A stretch of DNA of 52,975 nt from a bacterium (GTDB lineage: Bacteria > JAMCPX01), in NCBI GenBank assembly GCA_021787665.1, contig JAJYLN010000017.1, positions 1 to 52,975 on the forward strand, given 5' to 3'. The notes below the pieces were generated by a model. The model did not search any database, was not told the origin of the DNA, and saw nothing but the letters and a program-made list of their open reading frames with translations. The translations under genes and the position numbers were made by a program. This document shows, one piece after another, positions 1 to 29,859 of this stretch; within the stretch, counting starts at the first letter, position 1, and each line of letters starts with the position of its first letter.

Positions 1-127
1 GTACGATCACCGATGAAGCGATACAGGAATATATCAAGCAGCAGGAAGGGGAGCAGGTTGCCGATGACAGTCAATTTCAAATTGACGGGTCTCCGAACCT
101 ACCGCCTTCAAGGCGGTAGTCATTCAG
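1..127 (+). mobile_element. Right end of an IS200/IS605-family insertion element
   Basis: The first ~127 bases are the right end of an IS200/IS605-type element whose body lies off the window. They hold the last codons of a Y1-transposase-like reading frame (stop at 117-119) and a subterminal perfect hairpin: arm CTACCGCCT at 99-107, loop TCA, arm AGGCGGTAG at 111-119. Such hairpins near the ends are characteristic of this family, which does not use terminal inverted repeats. Immediately after it the sequence becomes hsdM coding sequence, so the element sits inside that gene. The exact cleavage point (near 123-128) is inferred. Confidence 0.75.
3..119 (+). CDS. IS200/IS605 family transposase TnpA, C-terminal fragment
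   Basis: Frame 3 is open from the window edge to TAG at 117-119 and encodes 38 residues beginning TITDEAIQEYIKQQEGEQ, the usual kind of tail of IS200-like Y1 transposases (a final amphipathic helix around EYIxxQ followed by a short polar tail). The catalytic HUH and Tyr regions lie off the window. The stop codon falls in the 3' arm of the right-end hairpin, a compact arrangement common in these elements. The same bases can also be read in frame 1 as the apparent N-terminus of hsdM, but that reading is low-complexity and unlike any methyltransferase. Family assignment rests on the tail and the hairpin only. Confidence 0.65.
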   Translation, partial: TITDEAIQEYIKQQEGEQVADDSQFQIDGSPNLPPSRR

Positions 128-1329
128 ATAAAGCCAATGACCTTTTGGAAGAGCATAACCGTGTTCTTGAAGGTGTTCTTTCCGCTACCAATTTCAACGA
201 TAAGGACAGGTTGCCGGACAGCACGCTCTCAAAGCTCATTTTGCACTTCTCGAAACTCAGGTTGCGGAACGAGGATCTTGAAGAACCGGATATCCTTGGC
301 CGGGCCTATGAATATCTTATAGGCGAATTCGCTGATGACGCAGGTAAGAAAGGCGGGGAATTTTATACACCCAAAGAGGTTGTGTCACTTCTGGTCGAGA
401 TTCTCGATCCGCAGGAAGGGATGTACGTCTGCGATCCCGCGTGCGGATCCGGTGGGATGCTTGTACAAACAGTCTACCATCTGAAGTCCGTGCATCAGAA
501 TTATAAAAACGTTGTCCTCCATGGACAGGAGAAAAATATAGGCACATGGGCAATATGCAAGATGAACATGCTTTTGCACGGAATCGGCGGTGCACGGATA
601 GAAAAAGGTGACACCATACGCGAGCCCAAGCTGATGCAAAAAGGGAAATTGATCGAGTACGATACTGTCATTGCCAATCCGCCGTTCTCTCTTAAAAACT
701 GGGGTATCGAGGTGGCAGGAAACGATCCGTTTAATAGATTTAAGTATGGTATCCCGCCGAAAAGCTATGGAGATTATGCCTTTGTTCAGCACATGATTGC
801 TGTACTCAAACCCTCAGGCAAGGCCGGCGTCATCCTGCCGCACGGCGCCCTTTTCCGTGGTGGAGCAGAAGGCAAGATCAGAAAAGGTATTTTGGAAGAA
901 GACATCGTCGAGGCAGTCATAGGCCTTCCGCCCAATCTTTTTTATGGTGCGAGTATTCCGGCTTGTCTTTTTATTATCAACAAAAAGAAATCGGCCCGCA
1001 ATAAGGGCAAGGTGTTCTTTTTATATGGAGCTCGCGACTTTCTTCAGGGCAAAAAACAGAACAAACTCAGACCCGAGGACATCGATAAAATAGTTAGCGC
1101 ATACCGTTCCAATGCCACGGTGGGAAAATATTGCCGTCCTGTACTGTTGGACGAGATCCGACGTAATGATTACAACCTCAATATAACACGGTACATCGAT
1201 ATTACTGAACAAGAGGCCTCGATAGATGTCCAGAAGACGATCGACGAGCTTACCAGGCTCAAAAAAGAACGGGCATCGGCAGAGGAAAAAGTAGAAAGTC
1301 ATTTAAAATATTTAGGCTACAAGATATAG
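121..1329 (+). CDS. hsdM: Type I restriction-modification methyltransferase subunit HsdM, 5'-truncated by an IS
   Basis: HsdM is the adenine-N6 methyltransferase subunit of type I R-M systems; it acts with HsdS to modify DNA and with HsdS and HsdR to restrict it. Homologous sequence begins at about base 121 (SDKANDLLEEH...). It contains the S-adenosylmethionine motif DPACGSGG (about bases 433-456) and the catalytic NPPF motif (about 676-687), ends in a coiled-coil-like tail (ELTRLKKERASAEEKVESH), and stops at 1327-1329. Family members have roughly 100 or more extra residues of N-terminal helical domain; here those are cut off by the IS200/IS605 end. The frame stays open back to an ATG at 13, so a chimeric protein starting inside the IS is formally possible, and a TTG lies at about 151. 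No clear ribosome site is visible. I infer the gene is inactive unless such an internal start works. Confidence 0.85.
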   Translation, partial: HSDKANDLLEEHNRVLEGVLSATNFNDKDRLPDSTLSKLILHFSKLRLRNEDLEEPDILGRAYEYLIGEFADDAGKKGGEFYTPKEVVSLLVEILDPQEGMYVCDPACGSGGMLVQTVYHLKSVHQNYKNVVLHGQEKNIGTWAICKMNMLLHGIGGARIEKGDTIREPKLMQKGKLIEYDTVIANPPFSLKNWGIEVAGNDPFNRFKYGIPPKSYGDYAFVQHMIAVLKPSGKAGVILPHGALFRGGAEGKIRKGILEEDIVEAVIGLPPNLFYGASIPACLFIINKKKSARNKGKVFFLYGARDFLQGKKQNKLRPEDIDKIVSAYRSNATVGKYCRPVLLDEIRRNDYNLNITRYIDITEQEASIDVQKTIDELTRLKKERASAEEKVESHLKYLGYKI

Positions 1330-1332
1330 GTC

Positions 1333-1930
1333 ATGGAGTTTACAGGTAAAAAAGACGTAGATACGGCGCTGAGCGCCTTAGGGGAGCAACTATCCGCCAT
1401 CAGTATAGATGTAATTGACCTGTTGGTGTGCGGTGGGGCCGGGCTCCATGTCCTTGGAATGATATCGAGAACAACGAAAGACGTCGATGTAGTTGCAATA
1501 GTTTCACATAACTCTTCGAACCAATTGATACTGGGAACTGCAAAGCCCCTGCCGCTGAGCCTTGTCGAGGCGGCAAAAAAGGTAGAAAGGGATTTTCAAC
1601 TGAAGGACGGCTGGATAAATCCCGGACCTACATCTGCATTGGACTTTGGACTACCTGAGGGTGTTTTGGACAGGGCAGAAACGCACACATACGGCAAGCA
1701 TCTTATCGTACGCTTTATCAGCCGCTACGATCAGATATTTTAAACTCTATGCCGCAGTGGATCAGGGCGGGAAACACTACCAGGACCTTATTGCCCTGAA
1801 ACCCATCGCAGAGGAGCTTGAAATGGCCGCCCGCTGGAGCATGACGCACGATGTTTCAGAAGGGTACAGGGAGTCGCTGAAGTGTATGCTAAGTGAAATG
1901 GGGCATAAGGATGTTGCCGATAGAATTTAG
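1333..1930 (+). pseudogene. DUF6036/AbiEii-like nucleotidyltransferase-fold protein, frameshifted
   Basis: Starts with ATG three bases after hsdM and reads MEFTGKKDVDTALSALGEQL..., with a Pol-beta-type nucleotidyltransferase signature GGAGLHVLGMISRTTKDVDV (GG followed by DxD; about residues 35-55). The frame ends prematurely at TAA 1741-1743, but the neighbouring frame continues the same protein family without loss (KLYAAVDQGGKHYQDLIALKP ... RWSMTHDVSEGYRE ... HKDVADRI) to 1930. Removing one T from the TTTT run at 1738-1741 joins the two into ~198 residues (DQIFKLYAAVD). So it is either a homopolymer mutation or a sequencing error; programmed slippage at TTTTAAAC is less likely. The family resembles AbiEii-type toxins, and the next gene encodes a winged-helix protein. 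The toxin role is inference. Confidence 0.7.
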
Positions 1931-2969
1931 AGAAGCACTTATCGATAGAATCCTTGCCTTTCTATGGAGGCAGTGGTCAGCACTGGGCGTGCTTGGTGAA
2001 TCAGGTGCGGAGGATGACTGGGTCATCGATCCCGAACCTCTGCTTGTTTTCTCTCTGGACATAGGGCGCTATGAGCCGAGGCTGTATGACGAAATCCTTG
2101 CATGGCTGCTGGTAAACGGCCAATGGCTCGATATGGCAAGGCTGAAAAGAATCCTTGAGAAACAGAATAGAGAGACTGTGCAGGTAGCGGGCGCAGCATT
2201 TCAATTTGCCTTGTCAAAAGGGAACAAGCGGAAATGGCAAAATATAACGCAATTTTGTGTAAGCATGTATAAGAAGCAATCCGGACAAGTGTACATAGAG
2301 CCGCTCTTCAAGGAGAGATCGGGAAAATCCCATCCCCTGGCTGTTGGTGATCAAGTTGAACCAAATTTTTTACTTTTTTCTTTGAACCGTCCAAAAATCA
2401 ATATACAGAAAGAGGCAAAAGAAGTGCCTGTTAATGCAAGTGCTAATCTGCGGTTTCTCTTGAGGTCCCTTTTCGGTATTGGAGCAAAGTCAGAATCCAT
2501 CCTGTACCTGTTGACCCATGAAGGTGCACGCCCCAGGGAAATCGCCGATGCCGTGGGACTTTTCTGGCTCGGTATACATCAAACCTTATTGGACCTTGCA
2601 AGGTCAGGCCTGGTGCTGACAAGGAGCAGGGGTAGGAAGGTGGAATACTGGGTGTCTCACAGGAAATGGTGGGATTTTCTCGCTTCGCTAAATATCGAGG
2701 AAACGCCTGAGCCCAAATGGCTCAACTGGAGCGCTATCTTCTCAGCCCTTTCGGTTGCATGGAAAGCGGTTGATGAAATGGCATTCGGAACAGAGTCCGA
2801 CTATATGAAGAGTTCAAAACTTCAGGACAGCCTTGAGATCATAGCACAGGAATTCTCCCGGGGCGGACATGATATTCCGAGAATACCGACCATGGCCCTT
2901 CCGCCGGATCTGCACCAGAAAACAGCCCTGCTTTTTTTAGGCAGCCTTTTTGGAGTGACTAATGGGTAA
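1911..2969 (+). CDS. Winged-helix DNA-binding protein, candidate antitoxin/regulator partner of the nucleotidyltransferase
   Basis: A 352-residue protein whose start overlaps the last codons of the frameshifted nucleotidyltransferase, indicating translational coupling. I prefer ATG 1911 over GTG 1893 because GGGG lies seven bases upstream. The N-terminal half is not recognisable by eye. The second half (about residues 185-270) looks like a MarR/ArsR-type winged helix: SESILYLLTHEGARPREIADAVGL (helix-turn-helix) followed by LLDLARSGLVLTRSRGRKVEYWV (recognition helix and wing). Pairs of a winged-helix protein and a nucleotidyltransferase resemble AbiEi/AbiEii abortive-infection modules, though here the order is toxin-like gene first. 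Its 3' end overlaps hsdS by eight bases, so it belongs to the R-M transcription unit. Confidence 0.6.
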   Translation: MLPIEFREALIDRILAFLWRQWSALGVLGESGAEDDWVIDPEPLLVFSLDIGRYEPRLYDEILAWLLVNGQWLDMARLKRILEKQNRETVQVAGAAFQFALSKGNKRKWQNITQFCVSMYKKQSGQVYIEPLFKERSGKSHPLAVGDQVEPNFLLFSLNRPKINIQKEAKEVPVNASANLRFLLRSLFGIGAKSESILYLLTHEGARPREIADAVGLFWLGIHQTLLDLARSGLVLTRSRGRKVEYWVSHRKWWDFLASLNIEETPEPKWLNWSAIFSALSVAWKAVDEMAFGTESDYMKSSKLQDSLEIIAQEFSRGGHDIPRIPTMALPPDLHQKTALLFLGSLFGVTNG

Positions 2970-4224
2970 CCAGATAACCACCCTCCGCATGGAGCAGAGA
3001 TTCAAAAAGACCCCGGCAGGTGAAATCCCGGTGGACTGGGAAGTTTCTCGTTTATTAGATGTTGCAACAATTATTATGGGGCAATCTCCTCCATCTTCTA
3101 GCTATAATAAAAATGGCATAGGTCTACCTTTTTACCAAGGGAATGCTGATTTCGGAAGAATATTCCCTACTTTAAACAATTGGTGTGCCGCACCAAAGAA
3201 GCAGGCAGAAAAGGGTGATATTCTCATAAGTGTTCGTGCTCCTGTAGGGGAAGTAAATATTGCTCCTCAGAAATGCTGTATTGGGCGTGGACTTGCAGTG
3301 CTAAGGCCTCAAGGCATAGATAGTAATTACCTATATTATATATTAATTTATTCTTCTACACTACTTAATAATCTCTCACAAGGAAGTACTTTCGGGGCAA
3401 TTAATAGTAAGGAACTATCCGATTTACAAATCCCTATACCGCCAAAGCGAGAGCAAAAAGAGATAGGATTATTTCTTTCTAATGTCGATGAGGCTATTGA
3501 TAAAACAGATGCTGTCATCGAAAAGACCAGAGAGCTAAAAAAGGGATTGATGCAGCAACTGCTGACGAAGGGAATTCAAAGAGGAAGATCCAAATCTCAA
3601 GATTTCAAAGACACGGAGATTGGAAAAATACCGAAGCACTGGGATATTCTACCAGCAGAGCAAGTTTGCAAAAGGGTAACAGATGGTACCCATGATACAC
3701 CAAAACCAGCCAACACCGGCTATTTTCTAGTAACATCAAAAAATATAAAAAATGGTAATATTGATTTTTCAGATGCTTATTTAATTAATAATTCAGATTT
3801 TAACGAAGCAAATAAAAGGAGTAAAGTTGATAGTTATGATGTATTATTTAGTATGATAGGCACAATAGGAGAAACAACAATAGTACCTGATGATAATCCA
3901 CATTTTGCAATAAAAAATATTGGTTTATTTAAAACCAATGAGAACAAATGGTTAGCTTTATGGTTGCATTATTATTTTTGTTCAAAATTTGCTCAATCTT
4001 ATATCAATAGCAATGTTAAAGGTTCATCTCAAAAATATTTACCACTATATTCATTAAGGAATTTTCCTATAATAGTTCCTCCTCCGTTAGAACAAAAAAA
4101 GATTGCGGAAGTTCTTTCAACTGTCGATAATGAGATAACCCATGAGGAAGAGCATAAATCTCAGTTAGATCGCATAAAAAAGGCTCTAATGGGAGTGCTG
4201 CTGACAGGGAAGGTGCGGGTGTAA
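2962..4224 (+). CDS. hsdS: Type I restriction-modification specificity subunit HsdS
   Basis: HsdS recognises the bipartite DNA target. The 420-residue protein shows the classic duplicated layout. TRD1 begins after GEIPVDWEVSRLLDV, followed by a central coiled-coil helix (PPKREQKEIGLFLSNVDEAID...TRELKKGLMQQLL). TRD2 begins after GKIPKHWDILPAEQV, followed by a second conserved helix (PPLEQKKIAEVLSTVDNEI...). ATG 2962 is preceded by GGAG at a good distance and overlaps the upstream gene. Both target-recognition regions, especially about 3700-4120, are far more AT-rich than the conserved segments and flanking genes, as expected from exchange of recognition domains by recombination. It is intact and could still guide HsdR or another HsdM in the cell. 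Confidence 0.93.
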   Translation: MGNQITTLRMEQRFKKTPAGEIPVDWEVSRLLDVATIIMGQSPPSSSYNKNGIGLPFYQGNADFGRIFPTLNNWCAAPKKQAEKGDILISVRAPVGEVNIAPQKCCIGRGLAVLRPQGIDSNYLYYILIYSSTLLNNLSQGSTFGAINSKELSDLQIPIPPKREQKEIGLFLSNVDEAIDKTDAVIEKTRELKKGLMQQLLTKGIQRGRSKSQDFKDTEIGKIPKHWDILPAEQVCKRVTDGTHDTPKPANTGYFLVTSKNIKNGNIDFSDAYLINNSDFNEANKRSKVDSYDVLFSMIGTIGETTIVPDDNPHFAIKNIGLFKTNENKWLALWLHYYFCSKFAQSYINSNVKGSSQKYLPLYSLRNFPIIVPPPLEQKKIAEVLSTVDNEITHEEEHKSQLDRIKKALMGVLLTGKVRV

Positions 4225-4228
4225 TGCT

Positions 4229-7200
4229 ATGACCACATTCAACGAAGACACGCTTTCCGAGAAACCGGCGATAGAGCAATTGAAGCGGATGGGGTATGAG
4301 TTTATCCCAGGTGATAAGCTCGATCCGCAGGAAAACGAAGACTCAGAGCGCTCGTCACGGCGCGATGTGGTGCTGGTCAATCGCTTGCGGGCAAAACTTG
4401 TTGAATTGAACCCGGATGCTTCCGAAGGGGCAATAGATAAAGCCATCCGGCGCGTGACGAACATTCAGGGCACCGGTATTTTGGATGAAAACAGGACATT
4501 CCATCACGATCTTGTCTCAAATATCTCGATAGACCAGGAGACGGATGCAGGCAGACGCGGTGTGACCATCAAGTTCATAGATTTTGATCATCCGGAGATG
4601 AACGAGTTCCTGGTAGTCAACCAGTTCTGGGTAAAGGGACACGACGTTTATGATCGTCCGGACATCGTGATCTTCGTGAACGGCATACCGCTCGTTGTTA
4701 TCGAATGCAAAAGCCCTGTCGCGAAAGAGACTGGAACAAAAGAGGCGTTGGATCAATTGATCCGTTATCAAAAGGAGATACCGGCACTATTCCGTACTAA
4801 TCAGATCCTGATCGGCATTAACCTGTTCGGAGCAAAATACGGGGTAATCGGTGCAAGTCAGGAAGACTTCCATGAATGGAAGGCTAAGCCTGAAGAGAAA
4901 CTGCCAATACTCAGGGATCATCCTATGGTCAAAGAGATGCTTGAACTGAAGTTGATCGATAAAAATGGCCTATCCCTTACACCGGCAGCGCAGGATGTTT
5001 TGATAGCAGTGCTTCTGAATAAGAAGAACCTTCTTGATATCATCCGGAACTTCATTCTCTTCGATACCAAAAACGGCATGATGACAAAAAAGATTACCCG
5101 CTACCAGCAATTCACCGCTGTTCTTAAGATTGTTAACAGGATACTTCACGAGAAAGAAAAAAAGGGCATAATCTGGCACTGGCAAGGATCCGGCAAGTCT
5201 CTTACCATGCTCTTTACGGCCCTCAAGCTCCGAAGAGAAGAGGCATTGCTTCAAAATCCATATATTCTGGTGATAACGGACAGGAAATATTTGGATCGGC
5301 AGATATCCGATACATTCCGGGAATGCGGGTTCCCAAACCCAATCCGGGCAGAAAACTCGAAAGACCTCTACCATATGTTATCTGAAGGCGTAGGGCGTAC
5401 TATAATGACTACGGTACAGAAATTCAGAACCATGCCGGACAAGCCTTTATCAACCGCAAAAAATATCATCGTACTGACCGATGAAGCGCACAGGACACAG
5501 TACGGGAGTTTTTCCATTTATTTAGGAAAGGCCTTGCCGCATGCATCAATTTTTGCCTTTACCGGAACACCTCTGGATAAGCGGGGCAGAAATACGTACA
5601 GAGTTTTCAGTCCACACGGTGAACGATACCTGGATAGGTATACAATATTTCAATCAGAACAGGACAGGACTACCGTACCAATTAAGTATATGAGCCGCAT
5701 GGCGGAGCTGCGCATAATAGGTTCGTCACTTGATTCATTGTTGTCCGCATTGTTCCCCGGAAAAACAAAAAAAGAGCTTGCAGCTCTGAAAAAGCAATTC
5801 GCCACTCGTAATGCGCTGACACACGCCCCCCAACGCATAGAAAGGATCGCCCTGGATATTGTAAAACACTACAATCAGGTTGTTAGGCCGGACGGCTTTA
5901 AAGCGATGCTCGTTGCCGAATCCCGTGATGCGGTTGTCAAATATAAGAATGCGCTGGATCGTCTTATCGATCCCGGCATGTCGGCAGTTGTCATGACCAT
6001 CAATGAAAAAGAGGATCCGGACGAATGGAAAGAAAAATACTTTCTTACCGAAAAGGACGAAGACACACTCAAGGGACGTTTTATGGATCCCGATGAGCCT
6101 CTTTCAATTTTCATCGTTTGCGATAAGTTGCTTGCCGGATTCGATGCTCCCATTCTTCAGGCTATGTATCTTGACAGCCGGCTCAGGGAGCATAACCTCC
6201 TTCAGGCCGTCGCACGCACAGACAGACCGTATCCAAGGAAAAATTTCGGACTTGTTGTAGATTACATAGGTGTCGGGACAGAGCTCTTGAAAGCGCTTGA
6301 GATGTTCAATGCCGAGGACCTTGTTGGGCTATTCAATATCGACGATGTCGAAAAAGAGCTTGTAAAATTAAAAGATCATCATAAGGCAGCAATAGACATC
6401 TTTTCCGGAATACCGCTCGACGGAGACCCGAAAGAAGTTATACAGAAATGCATGGATGTTCTGAGCAGTGCAAAATTGAGGGATACGTTTAACGGCACCT
6501 ATCGTGCGTTTGCTGGAAGTATGGATTTTTTGATGCCCGATGTGAGAGTAGCTCCATATATAAAGGATTTTAAGTTCCTGGGCTTGATCAGGGAAGCGGC
6601 GAGGAACCTTTATCGGGATGAGAGCCTGCGAATGGATGATCTGGGCCGTAGAATCGAAGCGCTGATACACGCCCATGTCGTTGCCGAAGGGATCGAGGAT
6701 CTATTGAAACCCCTAATCATAAGCTCCAGCGATTTTACGGATAAGCTCAAAGCCAAGGGAAGTGATAAAGCGCAGGCTGTTCACCTGGAATATGCTATCA
6801 GGGACGAGATTCAGGAACATGCAGCCGAAGATCCGGTATTTTATGAATCTCTTCAGAAGCAGCTTGAAACATTAATAGAGAGTCAGAAAAAAGAAAGAAA
6901 AGACGATGCCGAGGTTTTGCGTTCCCTGATGCAGATCAAGGATAAGGAAGCCAGAAAGGATGCGGATGCACGGAAATATGGCCTTGACGGAAGCAAGGAG
7001 TTCGCTTTCTTCGGTTTGATTGGAAAATTCCAGAAAGCAATCCCGCTCAAGACTGAGGAGGAGATGTCTTCTCTCGCAAAGAAAATCATAGAAATATTGG
7101 AAAAGCATGCCGTTGTGGAATGGACGGATCGGGAAGATATCCAAAAGGAAATGCGTCGTGACATTAAACGTGTGCTGCGTGCCAAGGGCTGTACTGAGAA

Positions 7201-7261
7201 AGACCTGCCGCATGTAGTCAGGGAGTTTATGGAGATAGGGCAGCGGTGGGTAAAGAGATAG
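4229..7261 (+). CDS. hsdR: Type I restriction enzyme HsdR (nuclease/translocase) subunit
   Basis: HsdR translocates DNA using ATP and cleaves it. The 1010-residue protein shows an N-terminal PD-(D/E)xK nuclease domain (D145 in RPDIVIF, E159 and K161 in VVIECKSP) and a superfamily 2 helicase motor with Walker A GSGKS at 320-324, DEAH at 418-421 and TGTP at about 446-449. The second RecA-like lobe ends in the motif QAVARTDRPYPRKNFG. A charged helical C-terminus would bind the HsdM/HsdS core. The length is normal for the family and no lesion is visible. The start lies four bases after hsdS. With hsdM truncated, an active HsdR would be dangerous if unmodified sites exist, so either restriction is silent or methylation is supplied elsewhere. 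Confidence 0.95.
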   Translation: MTTFNEDTLSEKPAIEQLKRMGYEFIPGDKLDPQENEDSERSSRRDVVLVNRLRAKLVELNPDASEGAIDKAIRRVTNIQGTGILDENRTFHHDLVSNISIDQETDAGRRGVTIKFIDFDHPEMNEFLVVNQFWVKGHDVYDRPDIVIFVNGIPLVVIECKSPVAKETGTKEALDQLIRYQKEIPALFRTNQILIGINLFGAKYGVIGASQEDFHEWKAKPEEKLPILRDHPMVKEMLELKLIDKNGLSLTPAAQDVLIAVLLNKKNLLDIIRNFILFDTKNGMMTKKITRYQQFTAVLKIVNRILHEKEKKGIIWHWQGSGKSLTMLFTALKLRREEALLQNPYILVITDRKYLDRQISDTFRECGFPNPIRAENSKDLYHMLSEGVGRTIMTTVQKFRTMPDKPLSTAKNIIVLTDEAHRTQYGSFSIYLGKALPHASIFAFTGTPLDKRGRNTYRVFSPHGERYLDRYTIFQSEQDRTTVPIKYMSRMAELRIIGSSLDSLLSALFPGKTKKELAALKKQFATRNALTHAPQRIERIALDIVKHYNQVVRPDGFKAMLVAESRDAVVKYKNALDRLIDPGMSAVVMTINEKEDPDEWKEKYFLTEKDEDTLKGRFMDPDEPLSIFIVCDKLLAGFDAPILQAMYLDSRLREHNLLQAVARTDRPYPRKNFGLVVDYIGVGTELLKALEMFNAEDLVGLFNIDDVEKELVKLKDHHKAAIDIFSGIPLDGDPKEVIQKCMDVLSSAKLRDTFNGTYRAFAGSMDFLMPDVRVAPYIKDFKFLGLIREAARNLYRDESLRMDDLGRRIEALIHAHVVAEGIEDLLKPLIISSSDFTDKLKAKGSDKAQAVHLEYAIRDEIQEHAAEDPVFYESLQKQLETLIESQKKERKDDAEVLRSLMQIKDKEARKDADARKYGLDGSKEFAFFGLIGKFQKAIPLKTEEEMSSLAKKIIEILEKHAVVEWTDREDIQKEMRRDIKRVLRAKGCTEKDLPHVVREFMEIGQRWVKR

Positions 7262-23338: not shown

Positions 23339-25666
23339 TTACCCCTTCTTTACGAGCAGCCTGAAGTGGGTATTATCGAGCTTATCAACCGAGACGATGA
23401 TGTTTCCGTCGTCCTCGAGGCTCCTTGGTACGTTCGTTATGGGCTCGCCCTCGTCGACGTAAATCTCGAGTTCGTCGCCGCTCGTCAGCTCCTCGAGCTT
23501 CAGCTTTGCCCTTACGTAGTTATACGGACACTTTACACCCTTTAAGTCCAGTATCTGTTTTGGCATCTTAACCTCTACTTTATTCGCCTCTCGTATACAT
23601 GTACCGTTCAGAAGCGCATCGTCAAATGATTCCGTTGTCTTTCTGATTCTGTGGATGGCGTTCCTGATGTCCTTTACCGTTTTTTCGACGTCGTCCGTCT
23701 GTCTGCTCTCGTGCAGCCTGGTATAGGTACCCATGATAGACTCATCTATAATTCCCTCTTTTCTCAGCTTCGCAACGTACATCCCTAAATCCTCCCCGGT
23801 CGTGTCCGGGTCGACACCCTGTGTAATGAGCAGCGCCTGCAGGGCGTAGATGAGTGCGTCCTTGCTGTAGGCGAGCGACTGCTCCGGGATGCCGCGCCCC
23901 GCAAATGTATTCGCGTCCATTATCTTTGTCTCTGCCCTGTTCAGGTATATCTCTATGGTGTCCACGACACCGCCCGCACACTCGCCCTTGCCGATGTCCT
24001 TTATGGTAAACGGCTCGTCCATGCCGAAGTCGTAGTAGAATTTCGGTGCACGCTCGTACTCAGGCAGGTAGGAGTAATGCAGCAGCTCCTCGGCCAGCCT
24101 CTCTTCTCCGTATCGGGCAACCCATGCCTTGAACGTCTCGTCCGCTTGTTTTGTGCTCGTGTACAACTCGAGTAGTGCTCTTGTAAAGGCGGGTGTATGC
24201 CCTGCCGGTATCTTCAGGAACGGTTTTGAGAAGCGAAACCCCCGCTCACTTCCTTCACCGCCCACATAGACCTGATAGAACGGGGCATGTCTCTCGCCTA
24301 TACGCCTTGCCATGCCGCTGAAGCCGATGCCGGCGATGTGGTGCTGTCCACATGAGTTGGGACAACCGCATACCCGTATCTTGATGTCCGACAAGTCGCC
24401 ACTCAGGTGGGTATCGAGCTCGTCGTGAATGGCCTGTGCCAGTCCCTGGGACCTCGCGATCCCGAGGTTGCACGTCTTTGCACCCGGACAGCTCACGATA
24501 TCGAGCACCGTGTTGTCCTGTGCTATCAAGCCAGCCCGCTTCAGATCAAGATACACGGTCTCGATAGTACCCGTACCTATCCACGGTATGATAAGATCCT
24601 GATCGAGGGTGGTCCTTATCTCTCCGCTTCCGTGGAGACGGGAGAGCCTCACGACCTCCCTGAGGCTTTGAGAGGTTGTATCGCCATAAGGCAGGTGAAT
24701 GATTACCGCGCAGTAGCCCCTTTGCAACTGCGTGATTACCCTGCTCTGTGCCCACTGCTCCCCGTCTTTGTCGGGCAGTATGCCATGATCTGTCTCCGCG
24801 GCGCTGCAGTTCATGGCGATGTCGGAATCCGGCTGATCGCCGTAGATGCCTCTCACGACCCGGTACTCTTCTTCTATCAGTGACTTTACCGCATCGATCC
24901 CTTTTTCCTCGATAAGATACTTCAGTCTTGCCATGTTCCTGTTTGTCCGGTTCCCATGCCTGTCGAAAACCCGTATGACAGCGTCCGCAAATTGGATCGC
25001 CTCATCGTATCGTATGAAATCTTTTATCAGTTCAGCGGCCCTTGGATGCCCGCCGAGACCACCGCCCACATAAACTGTAAAGCCTGGTATGCCGTCCCTC
25101 CCGGTGGCGATAAAGCCTATGTCGTTGATCCTGCTGTAGGCACAGTCATCGCCGCATCCGCTGAACGAGATCTTGAACTTCCTCGGCAGGTTCTGGCATA
25201 TCGGGTTGCCGAGGAAATGCTCAGATGTCCTGCGTGCAAGGGCCGATACATCGAACGCTTGTTTCGGGCAGATGCCTGCAAAAGGGCACGATGTAATGTT
25301 TCTCACCGAATTGCCGCAGGCCTCTCTTGTGGTGATACCGGCCTCTGCATAGGCAGATAGAATCTCGTGGACGTGCTTCAGGTCGACCCAATGAATCTGG
25401 ATGTCTTGTCTCGTCGTGAGATGCATAAGCCCGCGGGCATACTTCTGGGCGACTTCGGCTATACGATCGAGCTGATAATCCAGTATCCGGCCCTGCGGAA
25501 GTTTTGTCCTTACCATGTAGAACCCCGGCTGGCGCTGACTATAGACGCCATGGCTCAATCGCAGAGTCTTGAACTTCTCTTCGCTGAGCGTGCCTGACAG
25601 AAACCTCTCTATCTGGGCCCTAAATTCGTCTATATCGCTCGTTAGAAAATCTTTTAAAACCTGCAT
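23339..25666 (-). CDS. Siroheme sulfite/nitrite reductase with two Cys4 motifs, HEPN-like linker and C-terminal TusA domain
   Basis: A 775-residue fusion (numbers below count from an alternative GTG two codons upstream; ATG 25666 is preferred, with GAGG five bases before it). The reductase part has the usual internal duplication (ferredoxin-like half at 45-100, catalytic half from 110; repeated from ~315). The C-terminal half carries the siroheme-[4Fe-4S] set C395-x5-C401...C437-x3-C441. The N-terminal half also has a full set, C129-x5-C135...C173-x3-C177, where classical NirA/CysI proteins have lost the cysteines. Residues ~555-690 form a helical HEPN-like segment, and 705-777 a TusA/SirA-like sulfur-carrier domain with the active-site Cys in KGVKCPYN. 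No signal peptide, so cytoplasmic. Whether sulfite, nitrite or another sulfur compound is the substrate cannot be told; the TusA domain favours sulfur. Confidence 0.9.
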   Translation of the reverse strand: MQVLKDFLTSDIDEFRAQIERFLSGTLSEEKFKTLRLSHGVYSQRQPGFYMVRTKLPQGRILDYQLDRIAEVAQKYARGLMHLTTRQDIQIHWVDLKHVHEILSAYAEAGITTREACGNSVRNITSCPFAGICPKQAFDVSALARRTSEHFLGNPICQNLPRKFKISFSGCGDDCAYSRINDIGFIATGRDGIPGFTVYVGGGLGGHPRAAELIKDFIRYDEAIQFADAVIRVFDRHGNRTNRNMARLKYLIEEKGIDAVKSLIEEEYRVVRGIYGDQPDSDIAMNCSAAETDHGILPDKDGEQWAQSRVITQLQRGYCAVIIHLPYGDTTSQSLREVVRLSRLHGSGEIRTTLDQDLIIPWIGTGTIETVYLDLKRAGLIAQDNTVLDIVSCPGAKTCNLGIARSQGLAQAIHDELDTHLSGDLSDIKIRVCGCPNSCGQHHIAGIGFSGMARRIGERHAPFYQVYVGGEGSERGFRFSKPFLKIPAGHTPAFTRALLELYTSTKQADETFKAWVARYGEERLAEELLHYSYLPEYERAPKFYYDFGMDEPFTIKDIGKGECAGGVVDTIEIYLNRAETKIMDANTFAGRGIPEQSLAYSKDALIYALQALLITQGVDPDTTGEDLGMYVAKLRKEGIIDESIMGTYTRLHESRQTDDVEKTVKDIRNAIHRIRKTTESFDDALLNGTCIREANKVEVKMPKQILDLKGVKCPYNYVRAKLKLEELTSGDELEIYVDEGEPITNVPRSLEDDGNIIVSVDKLDNTHFRLLVKKG

Positions 25667-25698
25667 AAGCACCTCAATACGAGTAATTAACTTGTATA

Positions 25699-25728: not shown

Positions 25729-25753
25729 GTATTATTTCATGTTCAGGTTTTTA

Positions 25754-25783
25754 TTGACAAGAAAAAAAACTGATTGCTACCCT
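25754..25783 (+). promoter_or_regulatory. Candidate promoter of the Lpd-lipoyl-cytochrome operon
   Basis: TTGACA (25754-25759), 18-bp spacer, TACCCT (25778-25783). The predicted start is only about six bases before ATG 25796, so the transcript would be nearly leaderless. The -10 is weak. Confidence 0.35.
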
Positions 25784-25795
25784 GAATTCGTGAGC

Positions 25796-27211
25796 ATGTA
25801 TGACCTTATAGTGATCGGCGCCGGTATCGGTGGCTATCCGGCAGCTATACGGGGGGCCCAGCTTGGGGCAAAGGTCCTTATCGTCGAAAAGGCCGAGGTG
25901 GGAGGTACCTGCCTGAATAGGGGCTGTATACCAACCAAGGCTCTGAAGGCGACCTCCGAAATGCTTGATGGCCTGCACAGGCTTGGCGAGTTCGGACTTT
26001 CGGGCAGGGTAGAAGTCAGTGTGGACATGAACAAGATCGTACAGAGGAAAAACCGGATCGTGGATGAACTCGTGAAAGGTGTTCATTTTTTATTGCGCTC
26101 GCAGGGGGTCACGTTAAAGTCAGGTGCTGTGACGTTTCTATCAAAGAACAAGGTCCGGATAACCTCGCGTGGCGGAGCGAGCGAGACCGCCGAATCGAAA
26201 GGATTCATCATAGCCACGGGATCTTCGCCGGCCGGACTCCCGGGCGTCGAGCCGGACGGCTCACGTATCCTCACGAGCGATCAGATACTCGATATTGATA
26301 CCTTGCCAAAAAGACTTATTATAATAGGAAGCGGCGTGATCGGCACCGAGATGGCTTTTATATTCCGGAGTTTGGGGGTCGATGTTACACTCCTCGAGAT
26401 GATGCCAAGGCCGTTACCATCGGAGGAGGAGGAAATATCGAGGTTAATCTCAAGGAGCTTTAAGAAAGTCGGTATCAAACTGAAGACGCAGGTCCGCGTT
26501 GCACGCATCGACATAAGAGACGACGTCAGCGTTTACCTTGACAATAATGAGGTCGTGAACGCAGACAGGGTACTTGTTGCGGTGGGAAGAAAGATAAATA
26601 CCGGCGAACTCGGGCTTGGGGCACTCGGTATAAAGCTTGGTAAACAGCACGAGATTATGGTTGATCCATTTTTTAACACAGGTATTGACAACATCTACGC
26701 ATGCGGTGATGTAATTGGCGGTATGATGCTCGCACACGTTGCTTACAAAGAAGGCATAACGGCGGCCGCAAATCTGCTGGGAAGCGAGAAACGGTCCATC
26801 AACTATCGTGCGATACCATATGCTATCTACTCGAGCCCTGAAGCGGCAAGCGTGGGACTTACTGAGGGAAAGGCACGGGACATGGGTTTCGAGGTCAGGA
26901 CGGGCGTGTTTCCGTACAGGGCACTGGGGAAGGCAAGGGCATATTCGGAGACGGACGGCGTTGTGAAAGTGGTCGTTGATGGTGACACGCAGAAAGTGCT
27001 CGGTATGCATGTCGTCGGTCCTCACGCCACGGACGCTATTGCTCAGGGCGCGATGGCCATCCAGAACGATCTGACCGTGCGATCGCTCAGCGATACCGTT
27101 GCCGCGCATCCGACCTATGCAGAGGCAGTGATGGAAGCCGCGGAGGATGTCTTTTCCCGTGCGATTCATCAGCCAAGGATAATGACGAAAGAACAATCGG
27201 GTGGGAATTGA
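25796..27211 (+). CDS. lpdA: Dihydrolipoyl dehydrogenase
   Basis: FAD flavoprotein that reoxidises dihydrolipoyl groups with NAD+. The 471-residue protein starts at the family-typical MYDLIVIGAGIGGYPAAIRG (FAD Rossmann); an ATG at 25739 adds an unlikely extension. The redox-active disulfide is C39-LNRG-C44, the NAD-binding motif is IIGSGVIGTEMA, and the second FAD motif is IYACGDVIGG. The C-terminal catalytic dyad is HPTYAEAVMEA (His/Glu). It heads a five-gene operon with a lipoyl carrier 18 bases after it. No E1/E2 dehydrogenase components and no other glycine-cleavage genes are in the window, so the dihydrolipoyl substrate is most likely the adjacent GcvH-like protein. Confidence 0.93.
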   Translation: MYDLIVIGAGIGGYPAAIRGAQLGAKVLIVEKAEVGGTCLNRGCIPTKALKATSEMLDGLHRLGEFGLSGRVEVSVDMNKIVQRKNRIVDELVKGVHFLLRSQGVTLKSGAVTFLSKNKVRITSRGGASETAESKGFIIATGSSPAGLPGVEPDGSRILTSDQILDIDTLPKRLIIIGSGVIGTEMAFIFRSLGVDVTLLEMMPRPLPSEEEEISRLISRSFKKVGIKLKTQVRVARIDIRDDVSVYLDNNEVVNADRVLVAVGRKINTGELGLGALGIKLGKQHEIMVDPFFNTGIDNIYACGDVIGGMMLAHVAYKEGITAAANLLGSEKRSINYRAIPYAIYSSPEAASVGLTEGKARDMGFEVRTGVFPYRALGKARAYSETDGVVKVVVDGDTQKVLGMHVVGPHATDAIAQGAMAIQNDLTVRSLSDTVAAHPTYAEAVMEAAEDVFSRAIHQPRIMTKEQSGGN

Positions 27212-27229
27212 GGAAGGAGGTTGATGCGT

Positions 27230-27613
27230 ATGGCAGATGATATCTGGTACAATGATGGCCATGTATGGACGACCGTAGAAGGAAATCATGCCTACATCGG
27301 CGTCTCGTATTATGCACAGGAAGAACTCGGCGACATCCTGTCGGTTGAGTTGCCAGAGGTCGGCGACAAGATCGTGCAGGGCAAGGCTTTTGGCGAGATT
27401 GAGTCAGCGAAGACTGTAAGCGATATCGTGTCTCCGCTTTCAGGCAGGGTCGTGGAAGTAAACAACGATGTGATCAATGAGCCCGGGATAATAAACGAAG
27501 ACCCTCTCGGCGATGGGTGGCTACTGGAGATAGAAGGGATCGACGCGAAAGAGCTGAGGTCGCTCATGACGCAGGAGAAGTACGAGAAGTATGTAAAGGA
27601 ACTGTCGAAATGA
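27230..27613 (+). CDS. GcvH-like lipoyl carrier protein
   Basis: A 127-residue lipoyl-domain protein closely following glycine cleavage H protein: IGVSYYAQEELGDILSVELPEVGD, then the lipoylation motif GEIESAKTVSDI with K61 as attachment site, and NEDPLGDGWLLEIE. ATG 27230 is chosen because AAGGAGG lies nine bases upstream; ATG 27224 would be too close. There is no gcvT or gcvP beside it. Stand-alone H-like proteins occur both as true GcvH and as lipoate-binding proteins (LbpA) of the sHdr sulfur-oxidation pathway. By sequence this one is nearer GcvH, but its neighbours (Lpd, NfnAB-like flavoproteins, divergent TusA-fused reductase) argue for a redox or sulfur role. Its stop overlaps the next start (ATGA). 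Confidence 0.88.
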   Translation: MADDIWYNDGHVWTTVEGNHAYIGVSYYAQEELGDILSVELPEVGDKIVQGKAFGEIESAKTVSDIVSPLSGRVVEVNNDVINEPGIINEDPLGDGWLLEIEGIDAKELRSLMTQEKYEKYVKELSK

Positions 27614-28440
27614 ACAAAATCGTGAAGAAGAGGATGCTGTCGCCGGTGATAGCGGAGATAGAGCTGTCAGCACCGTACATTGCGAGGTCGCAGAAGCCGG
27701 GACAGTTTGTCATCGTGAGGGTCGACGATAGGGGCGAGAGGATACCCCTCACCATTGCGCATGCGGATGCAGAGAAGGGCACGATTACCCTTATCGTGCA
27801 ATCGATAGGCAAAACAACGACCAGGTTCAATTTGATGGAGGCTGGCGAGTCGGTCGCGGACCTGGTGGGACCGCTCGGTAAGCCATCGCATATACAGTAT
27901 TTCGGAAGGGTCGTGACGATAGGCGGTGGCGTCGGTACCGCCATAGCCTGGCCTACGACCCGGGCGTTTAAAGAGGCGGGCAACGAGGTCATCAGCATCA
28001 TTGGTGCACGGACGAAAGAGTTGCTGATCCTTGAGCAGGAGATGCGCGAGATCTCGGACAGGGTCATAGTCACAACCGATGACGGGAGCTACGCGAACAA
28101 AGGGTTCGTGACGGACTCACTGAAGGGACTCATAGAGAATGATACGATACCGAACCTCGTCCTTGCGATCGGTCCTGTCCCGATGATGCGGGCCATCTCG
28201 GAACTCACGCGCACGTATGCGATACCGACCGTCGTGAGCCTTAACCCCATCATGCTCGACGGCACAGGCATGTGCGGGGTGTGCAGGGTCTCGGTGGGCG
28301 GCAAGACGATGTTCGCGTGCGTCGACGGCCCGGAGTTCGATGCGCATCAGGTGGACTTCAATGGTCTTACTCAGAGGCTGAGGTCGTACCAGAAAGAGGA
28401 GAAATTGTCCCTGGAACTTCTAAAATCATGGGAAAGGTAA
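27610..28440 (+). CDS. NfnA/SudB-like ferredoxin-NADP+ reductase subunit alpha
   Basis: A 276-residue FAD/[2Fe-2S] protein. The N-terminal FAD-binding barrel contains KPGQFVIVRVDDRGERIPLTIA, the NAD(P)-binding domain begins VVTIGGGVGTAIAWP, and the C-terminal cluster ligands lie in GTGMCGVCRVSVGGKTMFACVDGPEFD. This is the pattern of dihydroorotate-dehydrogenase-electron-transfer/sulfide-dehydrogenase subunit B and NfnA. With the next gene it should form an NfnAB-type complex exchanging electrons between NAD(H), NADP(H) and ferredoxin, in some organisms by flavin bifurcation, in others acting as polysulfide/sulfide dehydrogenase. ATG 27610 overlaps the lipoyl-protein stop. Confidence 0.88.
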   Translation: MNKIVKKRMLSPVIAEIELSAPYIARSQKPGQFVIVRVDDRGERIPLTIAHADAEKGTITLIVQSIGKTTTRFNLMEAGESVADLVGPLGKPSHIQYFGRVVTIGGGVGTAIAWPTTRAFKEAGNEVISIIGARTKELLILEQEMREISDRVIVTTDDGSYANKGFVTDSLKGLIENDTIPNLVLAIGPVPMMRAISELTRTYAIPTVVSLNPIMLDGTGMCGVCRVSVGGKTMFACVDGPEFDAHQVDFNGLTQRLRSYQKEEKLSLELLKSWER

Positions 28441-28446
28441 TGTAAC

Positions 28447-29859
28447 ATGGCAACATTGGACAAGAAAGAAAGACTCAAGATACAGAGGCATGCGATGCCT
28501 GAGCAGGACCCGATGGTCAGGATAGCCAACTTCGAAGAGGTCAATTTCGGGTTTACACCGAACCTCGCGATAGAAGAGGCGCAGCGATGCCTCCTGTGCC
28601 CGAAGCCGCTCTGCGTGGCCGGATGCCCGGTCAACATTGATATACCCTCCTTCATAAATCTTATAGCGGAGGGTAAATTCACAGAGGCGGCAAAGAAGAT
28701 AAAAGAGACCAACAGCCTTCCTGCGATATGCGGCAGGGTATGTCCCCAGGAAGAGCAGTGCGAAGGCGTGTGTGTCATCGGGAAGAAGGGCACCCCCGTT
28801 GCAATAGGCCACCTTGAGCGGTTTGTCGCTGACTGGGAAAGGACACACGGCGAGATCTCGGTGCCCGGGAAAAGGCCTGCAACCGGTAAGAAGGTTGCTG
28901 TCGTGGGCTCCGGACCGGCCGGGCTGACGGTCGCATCTGAGCTCGTGCAGATGGGGCATGCGGTCACCGTATTCGAGGCGCTCCATGTTCCGGGAGGCGT
29001 GCTTGCCTATGGCATACCCGAATTCAGGTTACCCAAGGACATCCTGGGCAGCGAGGTGGACTATTTGAAGAGGCTCGGTGTCGATATCGTTACCGACTTT
29101 GTCGTTGGAAAGACTTCTACCCTGGATGAGCTGCTGGAATCGGGCTACGACGCAGCATTTGTGGGAAGCGGCGCCGGCTTGCCCGTCTTCCTGAACATAC
29201 CAGGAGAGAACCTCAACGGTGTTTATTCGGCCAACGAGTACCTCACGAGGACCAACCTCATGAAGTCGTACCTCTTCCCTGAGTACGACACCCCCATAGC
29301 AAAGGCCAGAGGCGTGGTCGTGTTCGGAGGCGGTAACACGGCCATGGACGCGGTGCGGACGGCCAAGAGATTTGGCACGGAACATGCATACCTGATCTAC
29401 AGGAGGTCATGGGAAGAAATGCCGGCAAGGCTTGAAGAGCGACACCACGCAAAGGCAGAGGGCATCGAGTTCGTGTTTCTGACAGCTCCGACGAGGTTCA
29501 TAGGCGACGAGAGCGGCTGGGTCAAGGCCGTGGAGTGCATCAAGATGGAGCTCGGTGACCCGGACGCGTCGGGAAGAAGGAGGCCCGTACCCATAAAAGG
29601 ATCGGAGTATATGATTGACGCGGAACTCGCCGTGATCGCCGTCGGCAACGGTTCGAACCCGCTGATACCGCTCACGACGCCCGCTATACAGACGAACAAG
29701 TGGGGCAACATCATCGTCAAAGACAAGAGTACATCAACCACGAAGAGCGGCGTCTTCGCGGGCGGCGACATCGTGAGGGGTGGAGCAACGGTAATATTGG
29801 CAATGGGAGACGGCAAGCGGGCGGCAAGAGAAATAGATGTGTATCTGAAATCAAAATAA
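28447..29859 (+). CDS. NfnB/SudA-like subunit (glutamate synthase small-subunit family)
   Basis: A 470-residue flavoprotein of the GltD family. The N-terminal region has cysteine clusters for [4Fe-4S] binding (CLLCPKPLCVAGCPVNIDIP and ICGRVCPQEEQCEGVC). Two nucleotide-binding Rossmann motifs follow (VAVVGSGPAGLTVASEL for FAD; VVVFGGGNTAMDAVRTA for NAD(P)H), and a final FAD motif GVFAGGDIVRGGATVILAMGDG. Partnered by the preceding NfnA/SudB-like gene seven bases upstream. No large glutamate synthase subunit (gltB) is present, which argues against glutamate synthase and for NADH-dependent ferredoxin:NADP+ oxidoreductase or sulfide dehydrogenase. It is followed directly by the cytochrome gene, an unusual partner. 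Confidence 0.88.
   Translation: MATLDKKERLKIQRHAMPEQDPMVRIANFEEVNFGFTPNLAIEEAQRCLLCPKPLCVAGCPVNIDIPSFINLIAEGKFTEAAKKIKETNSLPAICGRVCPQEEQCEGVCVIGKKGTPVAIGHLERFVADWERTHGEISVPGKRPATGKKVAVVGSGPAGLTVASELVQMGHAVTVFEALHVPGGVLAYGIPEFRLPKDILGSEVDYLKRLGVDIVTDFVVGKTSTLDELLESGYDAAFVGSGAGLPVFLNIPGENLNGVYSANEYLTRTNLMKSYLFPEYDTPIAKARGVVVFGGGNTAMDAVRTAKRFGTEHAYLIYRRSWEEMPARLEERHHAKAEGIEFVFLTAPTRFIGDESGWVKAVECIKMELGDPDASGRRRPVPIKGSEYMIDAELAVIAVGNGSNPLIPLTTPAIQTNKWGNIIVKDKSTSTTKSGVFAGGDIVRGGATVILAMGDGKRAAREIDVYLKSK

Follow-up and report, generated by a model that had tools for sequence, protein, structure and literature searches.

A single-chain siroheme sulfite reductase with four-cysteine motifs in both repeats and fused HEPN-fold and TusA domains

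The window (the whole stretch of DNA analysed, 52,975 nt) encodes a siroheme sulfite reductase that carries four cysteines in each of its two repeats and continues into HEPN-fold and TusA domains (Table 1). We consider it somewhat probable, on balance, that the protein is an assimilatory reductase with one siroheme-[4Fe-4S] centre and a second, bare cluster, and that its sulfur passes via TusA to ThiS for cysteine. No description of a reductase-HEPN-TusA fusion was found in a literature search lacking most subscription journals.

Table 1. Positions in the window of the reductase gene and its parts
Feature	Position	Strand	Residues and basis
Siroheme sulfite reductase with HEPN and TusA	23339..25666	(-)	775 aa, ATG at 25666; ORF and Pfam
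First reductase repeat	24767..25558	(-)	residues 37-300; Pfam, alignment; supplies R53, R86, R122, K163 and K165 of the putative catalytic site
First-repeat four-Cys set, proposed bare [4Fe-4S] site	25142..25288	(-)	C127, C133, C171, C175; translation, alignment (function inferred)
Second reductase repeat	24092..24745	(-)	residues 308-525; Pfam, repeat-versus-repeat alignment
Second-repeat four-Cys set	24350..24490	(-)	C393, C399, C435, C439; aligns with E. coli CysI C434/C440/C479/C483, which bind the siroheme-coupled cluster
Tail arm	23969..24046	(-)	residues 541-566, conserved G-E-C-A with Cys563 at 23978-23980; motif alignment; low model confidence at 564-566
HEPN-fold domain	23621..23968	(-)	residues 567-682; fold match; no consistent R-x4-6-H RNase motif
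TusA domain	23342..23569	(-)	residues 700-775, carrier Cys713 at 23528-23530 in CPYN; Pfam, alignment, fold

Gene and domain organisation

The start Met is the same in relatives from genomes G001, G002 and G004. A preliminary description of this DNA had numbered the first-repeat cysteines 129, 135, 173 and 177; the spacing pattern was right and the numbers were two too high because they were counted from an upstream GTG at 25672, which lies outside the gene. The reductase gene is standalone, with tRNA genes just downstream on the other strand and the divergent dihydrolipoyl dehydrogenase gene (lpd) beginning at 25739. A divergent run at 25739-29859, coding for dihydrolipoyl dehydrogenase, GcvH, a DHODB-type FAD/NAD-binding subunit and a GltA-like protein, adjoins the reductase gene. 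A functional tie to these neighbours was dropped because the neighbour genes of the relatives differ. Elsewhere in the window, positions 13-7261 carry by eye a type I restriction-modification-like gene set.

Pfam finds two NIR_SIR 4Fe-4S repeats and two ferredoxin-like half domains in the 775-aa protein, and a TusA match (PF01206, 2.7e-16) at residues 705-774. The HEPN match at residues 572-670 is below threshold (20.4 bits, cut-off 22). Fold comparison used a second AlphaFold model of the protein (34 sequences, mean pLDDT 85.6). Residues 10-525 superimpose on M. tuberculosis NirA (MtNirA, 1zj8; Z 39.2, rmsd 2.5, 476 aligned), a top match tied with tobacco and spinach nitrite reductases, and in this model the best fold matches are assimilatory enzymes; the two fused NIR_SIR repeats thus show the assimilatory fold. 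The next domain (residues 567-682) has the HEPN helical-bundle fold (2hsb; Z 14.8, rmsd 2.6, 114 aligned) and the last (residues 700-775) the fold of E. coli TusA (3lvj; Z 11.6, rmsd 2.2, 75 aligned). The TusA carrier Cys713 (CPxx) is aligned in eight of nine fused proteins, the residue of the ninth (L077) being unreadable (X). Translation, Pfam and structure matches therefore bear out the earlier outline of one chain in which both repeats carry C-x5-C...C-x3-C and are followed by HEPN and TusA folds. The HEPN ribonuclease motif R-x4-6-H occurs in three of 30 rows and is absent from the window protein, and a ribonuclease role of this domain was rejected on that ground.

Sampling of relatives

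Nine genomes of the window's phylum were searched (G000 to G008, G000 being the window's genome), and the fused gene was found in six. The phylum of G010 (Planctomycetota) was represented by 294 genomes, 78 of them matching at 1e-60, and the loci of the best 30 matches were taken; from the phylum of G011 (Deltaproteobacteria; 247 genomes, 16 matching at 1e-100) all 17 matches were taken. Twelve named loci were added and 63 rows were aligned after removal of duplicates. The tree has 61 rows, the fragments L006 and L018 being dropped; it was built by a quick search, some of its branches are long (EcCysI, L153, L160), and its deep order is unsure.

Catalytic site

By alignment, R53, R122, K163, K165 and the second-repeat cysteines of the window protein correspond to R83, R153, K215, K217 and the four cluster cysteines of E. 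coli CysI. We take the four basic residues of CysI to be its sulfite-binding set. The window protein thus has what marks an assimilatory sulfite reductase (aSir), namely the second-repeat C-x5-C...C-x3-C with the four sulfite-site Arg/Lys, and by this match to E. coli CysI the catalytic site is assigned to the sulfite-reductase type. The five basic positions read R-R-R-K-K in 60 of the 61 rows that cover all five. Enzymes of the aSir/NirA family have one cluster motif per chain; the window protein, with four cysteines in each repeat, departs from this and is classed as a family variant.

An assimilatory nitrite reductase would also fit the plant nitrite reductases among the best structure matches and the best NCBIfam profile, the NirA family PRK09567 (281.8 bits, below the cut-off of 523). 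At the anion site, however, K163-x-K165 reads as in sulfite reductases, while the aligned tobacco nitrite reductases have K-x-N; K165 argues against a nitrite reductase, as do the TusA fusion and the cysteine-synthesis neighbours of the relatives, and we give nitrite as substrate only a very slight chance. K-x-N is seen in the relative L160 (L160:1117-3093), whose C-terminal tail looks Rieske-like by eye. Assignment to DsrAB, which has separate subunits, is not supported either: the protein is one chain, it scores 64.3 bits with the dsrB profile (cut-off 341.5) and 52.5 with dsrA (cut-off 392.85), and it is without the residues that hold a second siroheme.

Number of siroheme groups

The preliminary description had proposed that the chain could bind two siroheme-[4Fe-4S] centres. 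With one in each repeat, the protein would be a single-chain counterpart of DsrAB or of an Fsr dimer. The complete, in-register cysteine sets of both repeats speak for this proposal, and Fsr and DsrAB have two sirohemes per repeat pair according to passages of PMC10229431. In Fsr and other sulfite reductases, the same source states, siroheme is bound chiefly through basic residues that the partner repeat supplies. The partner pocket for a first-repeat cluster lies in the second repeat, and there the window protein has I322, D355, L388, D427 and K429 instead of R, R, R, K and K, one of five being basic. Arg/Lys stands at the five mirror positions in 3, 1, 1, 2 and 12 of 30 rows, respectively, and 24 of these rows have an acidic residue (Asp or Glu) at position 355. 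DsrA and DsrB of the related genome G003 served as controls, and each retains four of the five basic residues. One of the sirohemes in DsrAB is only structural. A second siroheme in the window protein is unlikely because the residues for its acidic groups are missing; the two-siroheme proposal is not borne out, and we regard it as very improbable. A bare [4Fe-4S] cluster appears, from these alignments, to be the better guess for the first repeat.

Cysteines of the first repeat

When the two repeats are aligned as profiles (E 1.9e-38), both cysteine sets fall in register. There are seven Cys in residues 37-300, and the chance of all four named positions being Cys is about 1.8e-7. In the 63-row alignment the first repeat has all four cysteines in 29 rows, three in 15, two in 6, one in 1 and none in 12, the last group including L006, a fragment that is missing this repeat. 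The set of four is complete in all eight TusA-fused rows whose first repeat is covered. In the 61-row tree it is found in 28 of 29 HEPN-bearing rows versus one of 32 other rows; Fisher's p of 4e-15 overstates this association because the rows are related, and a test on independent pairs had two to three pairs only and no power. The first-repeat cysteine set is a family trait.

On the tree the four-cysteine label changes three times and its 29 rows lie on three separate branches; one group made of these rows and L009 (four cysteines/HEPN) is not rejected (AU, p 0.32). A single origin of the TusA fusion was rejected (AU, p 3.3e-7). The view that the fourth cysteine, C133, is confined to the window's phylum was overturned by wider relatives including those in the 63-row alignment.

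It had also been stated that classical enzymes keep the cysteine set only in the C-terminal repeat. This fails as a whole rule, since 14 tree rows keep three of the four first-repeat cysteines. In the first repeat of E. coli CysI both paired motifs are absent, and its residue in the C127 column of the 63-row alignment is Asn; a second alignment, of the halves, places one CysI Cys in that column next to a gap. Aligned to MtNirA, the closest relative has Ser at the place of C127 and no Cys pair at C171/C175. Nothing on a Cys-Tyr bond in MtNirA was found in the literature searched, which lacked most subscription journals.

The suggestion in the preliminary description that the first repeat may house a second cluster is supported by the in-register set and its recurrence in relatives. 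The cysteines could instead bind zinc, pair as a disulfide or persist as a folding relic, with no Fe-S cluster. Fourteen tree rows with three of the four Cys and 18 with two or fewer still have an intact catalytic set, and the second pair of the 29 complete rows is C-x4-C in 21. The spacing is nevertheless that of the known cluster motif (C-x3-C) in the other eight, and four cysteines are kept on three separate branches and in nearly every HEPN-bearing row; we therefore think a site without a cluster unlikely. The ancestral flavour proposed for the bare cluster agrees with published models, since passages of PMC10229431 propose that assimilatory enzymes arose by duplication and fusion and that one of the two duplicated cluster sites was lost.

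Tail cysteine

A G-E-C-[AG] motif about 38 residues past the reductase core (Cys563) is present in all 30 HEPN-bearing rows. A [GS]-E-C-like motif forms the very C-terminus in 14 of 17 HEPN-less short-tail rows, L157 to L159 being without it. The penultimate C-terminal Cys of DsrC carries sulfur, as described in part of PMC3397948. By analogy, Cys563 could be the first acceptor of sulfur from siroheme, followed by TusA Cys713.

Gene neighbours and pathway genes

Three TusA-fused genes were found outside the window's phylum and all three are near a ThiF gene. In G552 the fused reductase, ThiS, CysM, JAMM and ThiF genes stand in a row on one strand; in G391 the fused gene directly precedes ThiF; in G203 a 192-aa protein gene comes between the two. 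These neighbours support the earlier suggestion, as far as gene order can, that TusA serves as a covalent sulfur carrier. In the G552 locus (L170:3715-4239) the ThiS part, 93 aa long and ending in GGVR, is encoded in a different frame from the NIL part. G003 has ThiS and NIL in one frame with an internal GG; the split in G552 may reflect processing, a frameshift or a sequence error.

The window's genome has the gene set of a CysO-type pathway (ThiS-like carrier, ThiF, CysM and JAMM protease). CysM, JAMM, ThiS/NIL and ThiF genes lie side by side in contig C15 (L143), apart from the fused gene; this ThiF is 265 aa long and without a rhodanese domain. The fused TusA is the only TusA domain above cut-off in G000. 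Several relatives also carry a standalone TusA, and the fused TusA is therefore not the sole route there. G007 has CysM, JAMM, ThiS/NIL and ThiF, with CysH, DsrE2 and TusA farther along.

The fused gene is the sole NIR_SIR gene in G000 and G007. G003, G005 and G008 have only a two-gene NIR_SIR pair, taken to be dsrA and dsrB (from inspection of the sequences in the case of G003), and G001, G002, G004 and G006 have both. Across the nine genomes of this phylum, DsrC is present in seven and AprA above cut-off in five, G000 and G007 having neither. In this one small family, dsrAB, dsrC and above-cut-off aprA are thus absent from some members and present in others closely related to them. A ThiS/NIL carrier is found in eight of the nine genomes, ATP sulfurylase in seven (G000 and G007 included) and a CysH-type reductase in eight; CysH was not found in G000, an assembly that is 92.66% complete.

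HEPN-less, TusA-less relatives (L010, L011, L012, L013, L014 and L016) have no ThiF match in their several-kb flanks. The L084 gene, which has the four cysteines and no HEPN, has ThiF, CysK and CysH nearby (L132). HEPN-bearing relatives without TusA vary: L131 has CysM in its locus, and the available stretches of L130, L134 and L172 have none of these pathway genes. A protein of about 190 aa with no Pfam/NCBIfam match adjoins the HEPN-bearing reductase in many Planctomycetota loci (L129:3893-4468, L130:3114-3722, L131:7306-7866 and others). An actinobacterial record (L015:1-3816) has a CysH gene flanked by two siroheme reductase genes.

Discussion

In the mechanism that we favour, the second-repeat cysteines and the first-repeat basic residues would hold one siroheme-[4Fe-4S], and the first repeat may keep a second, siroheme-free [4Fe-4S] from a duplicated ancestor. 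Sulfite would be reduced at the siroheme and the product taken up as a persulfide on Cys713 of TusA, not freed as sulfide; the flexible Cys563 arm perhaps relays sulfur from siroheme to Cys713. From there sulfur would pass to a ThiF-activated ThiS/CysO-like protein as a thiocarboxylate, in a direction of flow that we infer. CysM would make cysteine from this thiocarboxylate and the JAMM protease would free it. Transfer from reductase to ThiS is what gene order, as the support for this step, suggests. Several findings count against the mechanism: the fused gene and the CysM-ThiF genes are not neighbours within the window's phylum; most of the complete first-repeat sets have C-x4-C and not the textbook C-x3-C; CysH was not found in the G000 assembly; G003 (99% complete) has CysH, ThiS and ThiF and no fused gene; and several relatives have a standalone TusA besides the fused one.

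The enzyme might run in the oxidative direction, TusA bringing persulfide to siroheme for oxidation to sulfite. DsrC-type Cys arms are used by sulfur oxidisers according to part of PMC3397948, and G000 has ATP sulfurylase with CysH not found. Against this, both the cysteine motif and R86 are of the assimilatory type (PMC10229431, in part; the R86 equivalence is from our alignment), and ThiF is close by in three relatives that share the domains, one of which also adjoins ThiS, CysM and JAMM. We judge the oxidative direction quite improbable.

The protein shares features with several known systems. It has the two-repeat fold, catalytic basic residues and second-repeat cysteines in common with E. 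coli CysI and M. tuberculosis NirA, and adds the first-repeat cysteines, the Cys563 arm, HEPN and TusA. DsrAB with DsrC likewise has the cysteine set in both repeat copies and a Cys near the end of a flexible tail (PMC3397948, in part), whereas the window protein is a single chain with the assimilatory-type motif and Arg and without the second-siroheme residues. Fsr shares C-x5-C...C-x3-C and is the best first-repeat match among the listed single-repeat enzymes (Z 23.5, rmsd 2.1, 233 aligned), but it works as a single-repeat dimer in which every repeat binds a siroheme (passages of PMC10229431); single-repeat relatives are treated in PMC3448663. A haloarchaeal NirA-rhodanese fusion (19/529; PMC11237513) also joins a siroheme reductase to a sulfur-carrier domain; it has rhodanese instead of TusA, and the passages of that paper cited here describe no HEPN domain. 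The mycobacterial CysO-CysM-Mec+-MoeZR system has a ThiS-like carrier, a ThiF/MoeB enzyme, CysM and JAMM, as do G000 and relatives, and its CysO is sulfurated by the rhodanese-bearing MoeZR (PMC3227635, in part). ThiF here is without rhodanese, and the proposed carrier is the reductase-fused TusA.

Assimilatory sulfite reduction is usually drawn as a release of free sulfide. A tentative and rather doubtful extension of the favoured mechanism is that one chain both reduces sulfite and relays sulfur from siroheme through Cys563 (a DsrC-like arm) and Cys713 to the ThiS thiocarboxylate with no free sulfide, the first-repeat cluster being the remnant of a two-cluster ancestor. Zero-valent sulfur, according to a 2026 paper (PMC13188885), is what assimilatory enzymes directly produce; the discussion of that paper states that there is no evidence linking DsrC to assimilation and names no other protein carrier. 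If true, the one-chain relay would supply a carrier for this zero-valent sulfur, and the fused enzyme together with the G552 operon would be a concrete, testable candidate carrier in assimilatory sulfite reduction. The first-repeat cysteines would provide an extant example on which the duplication-fusion origin proposed for the assimilatory enzymes can be studied.
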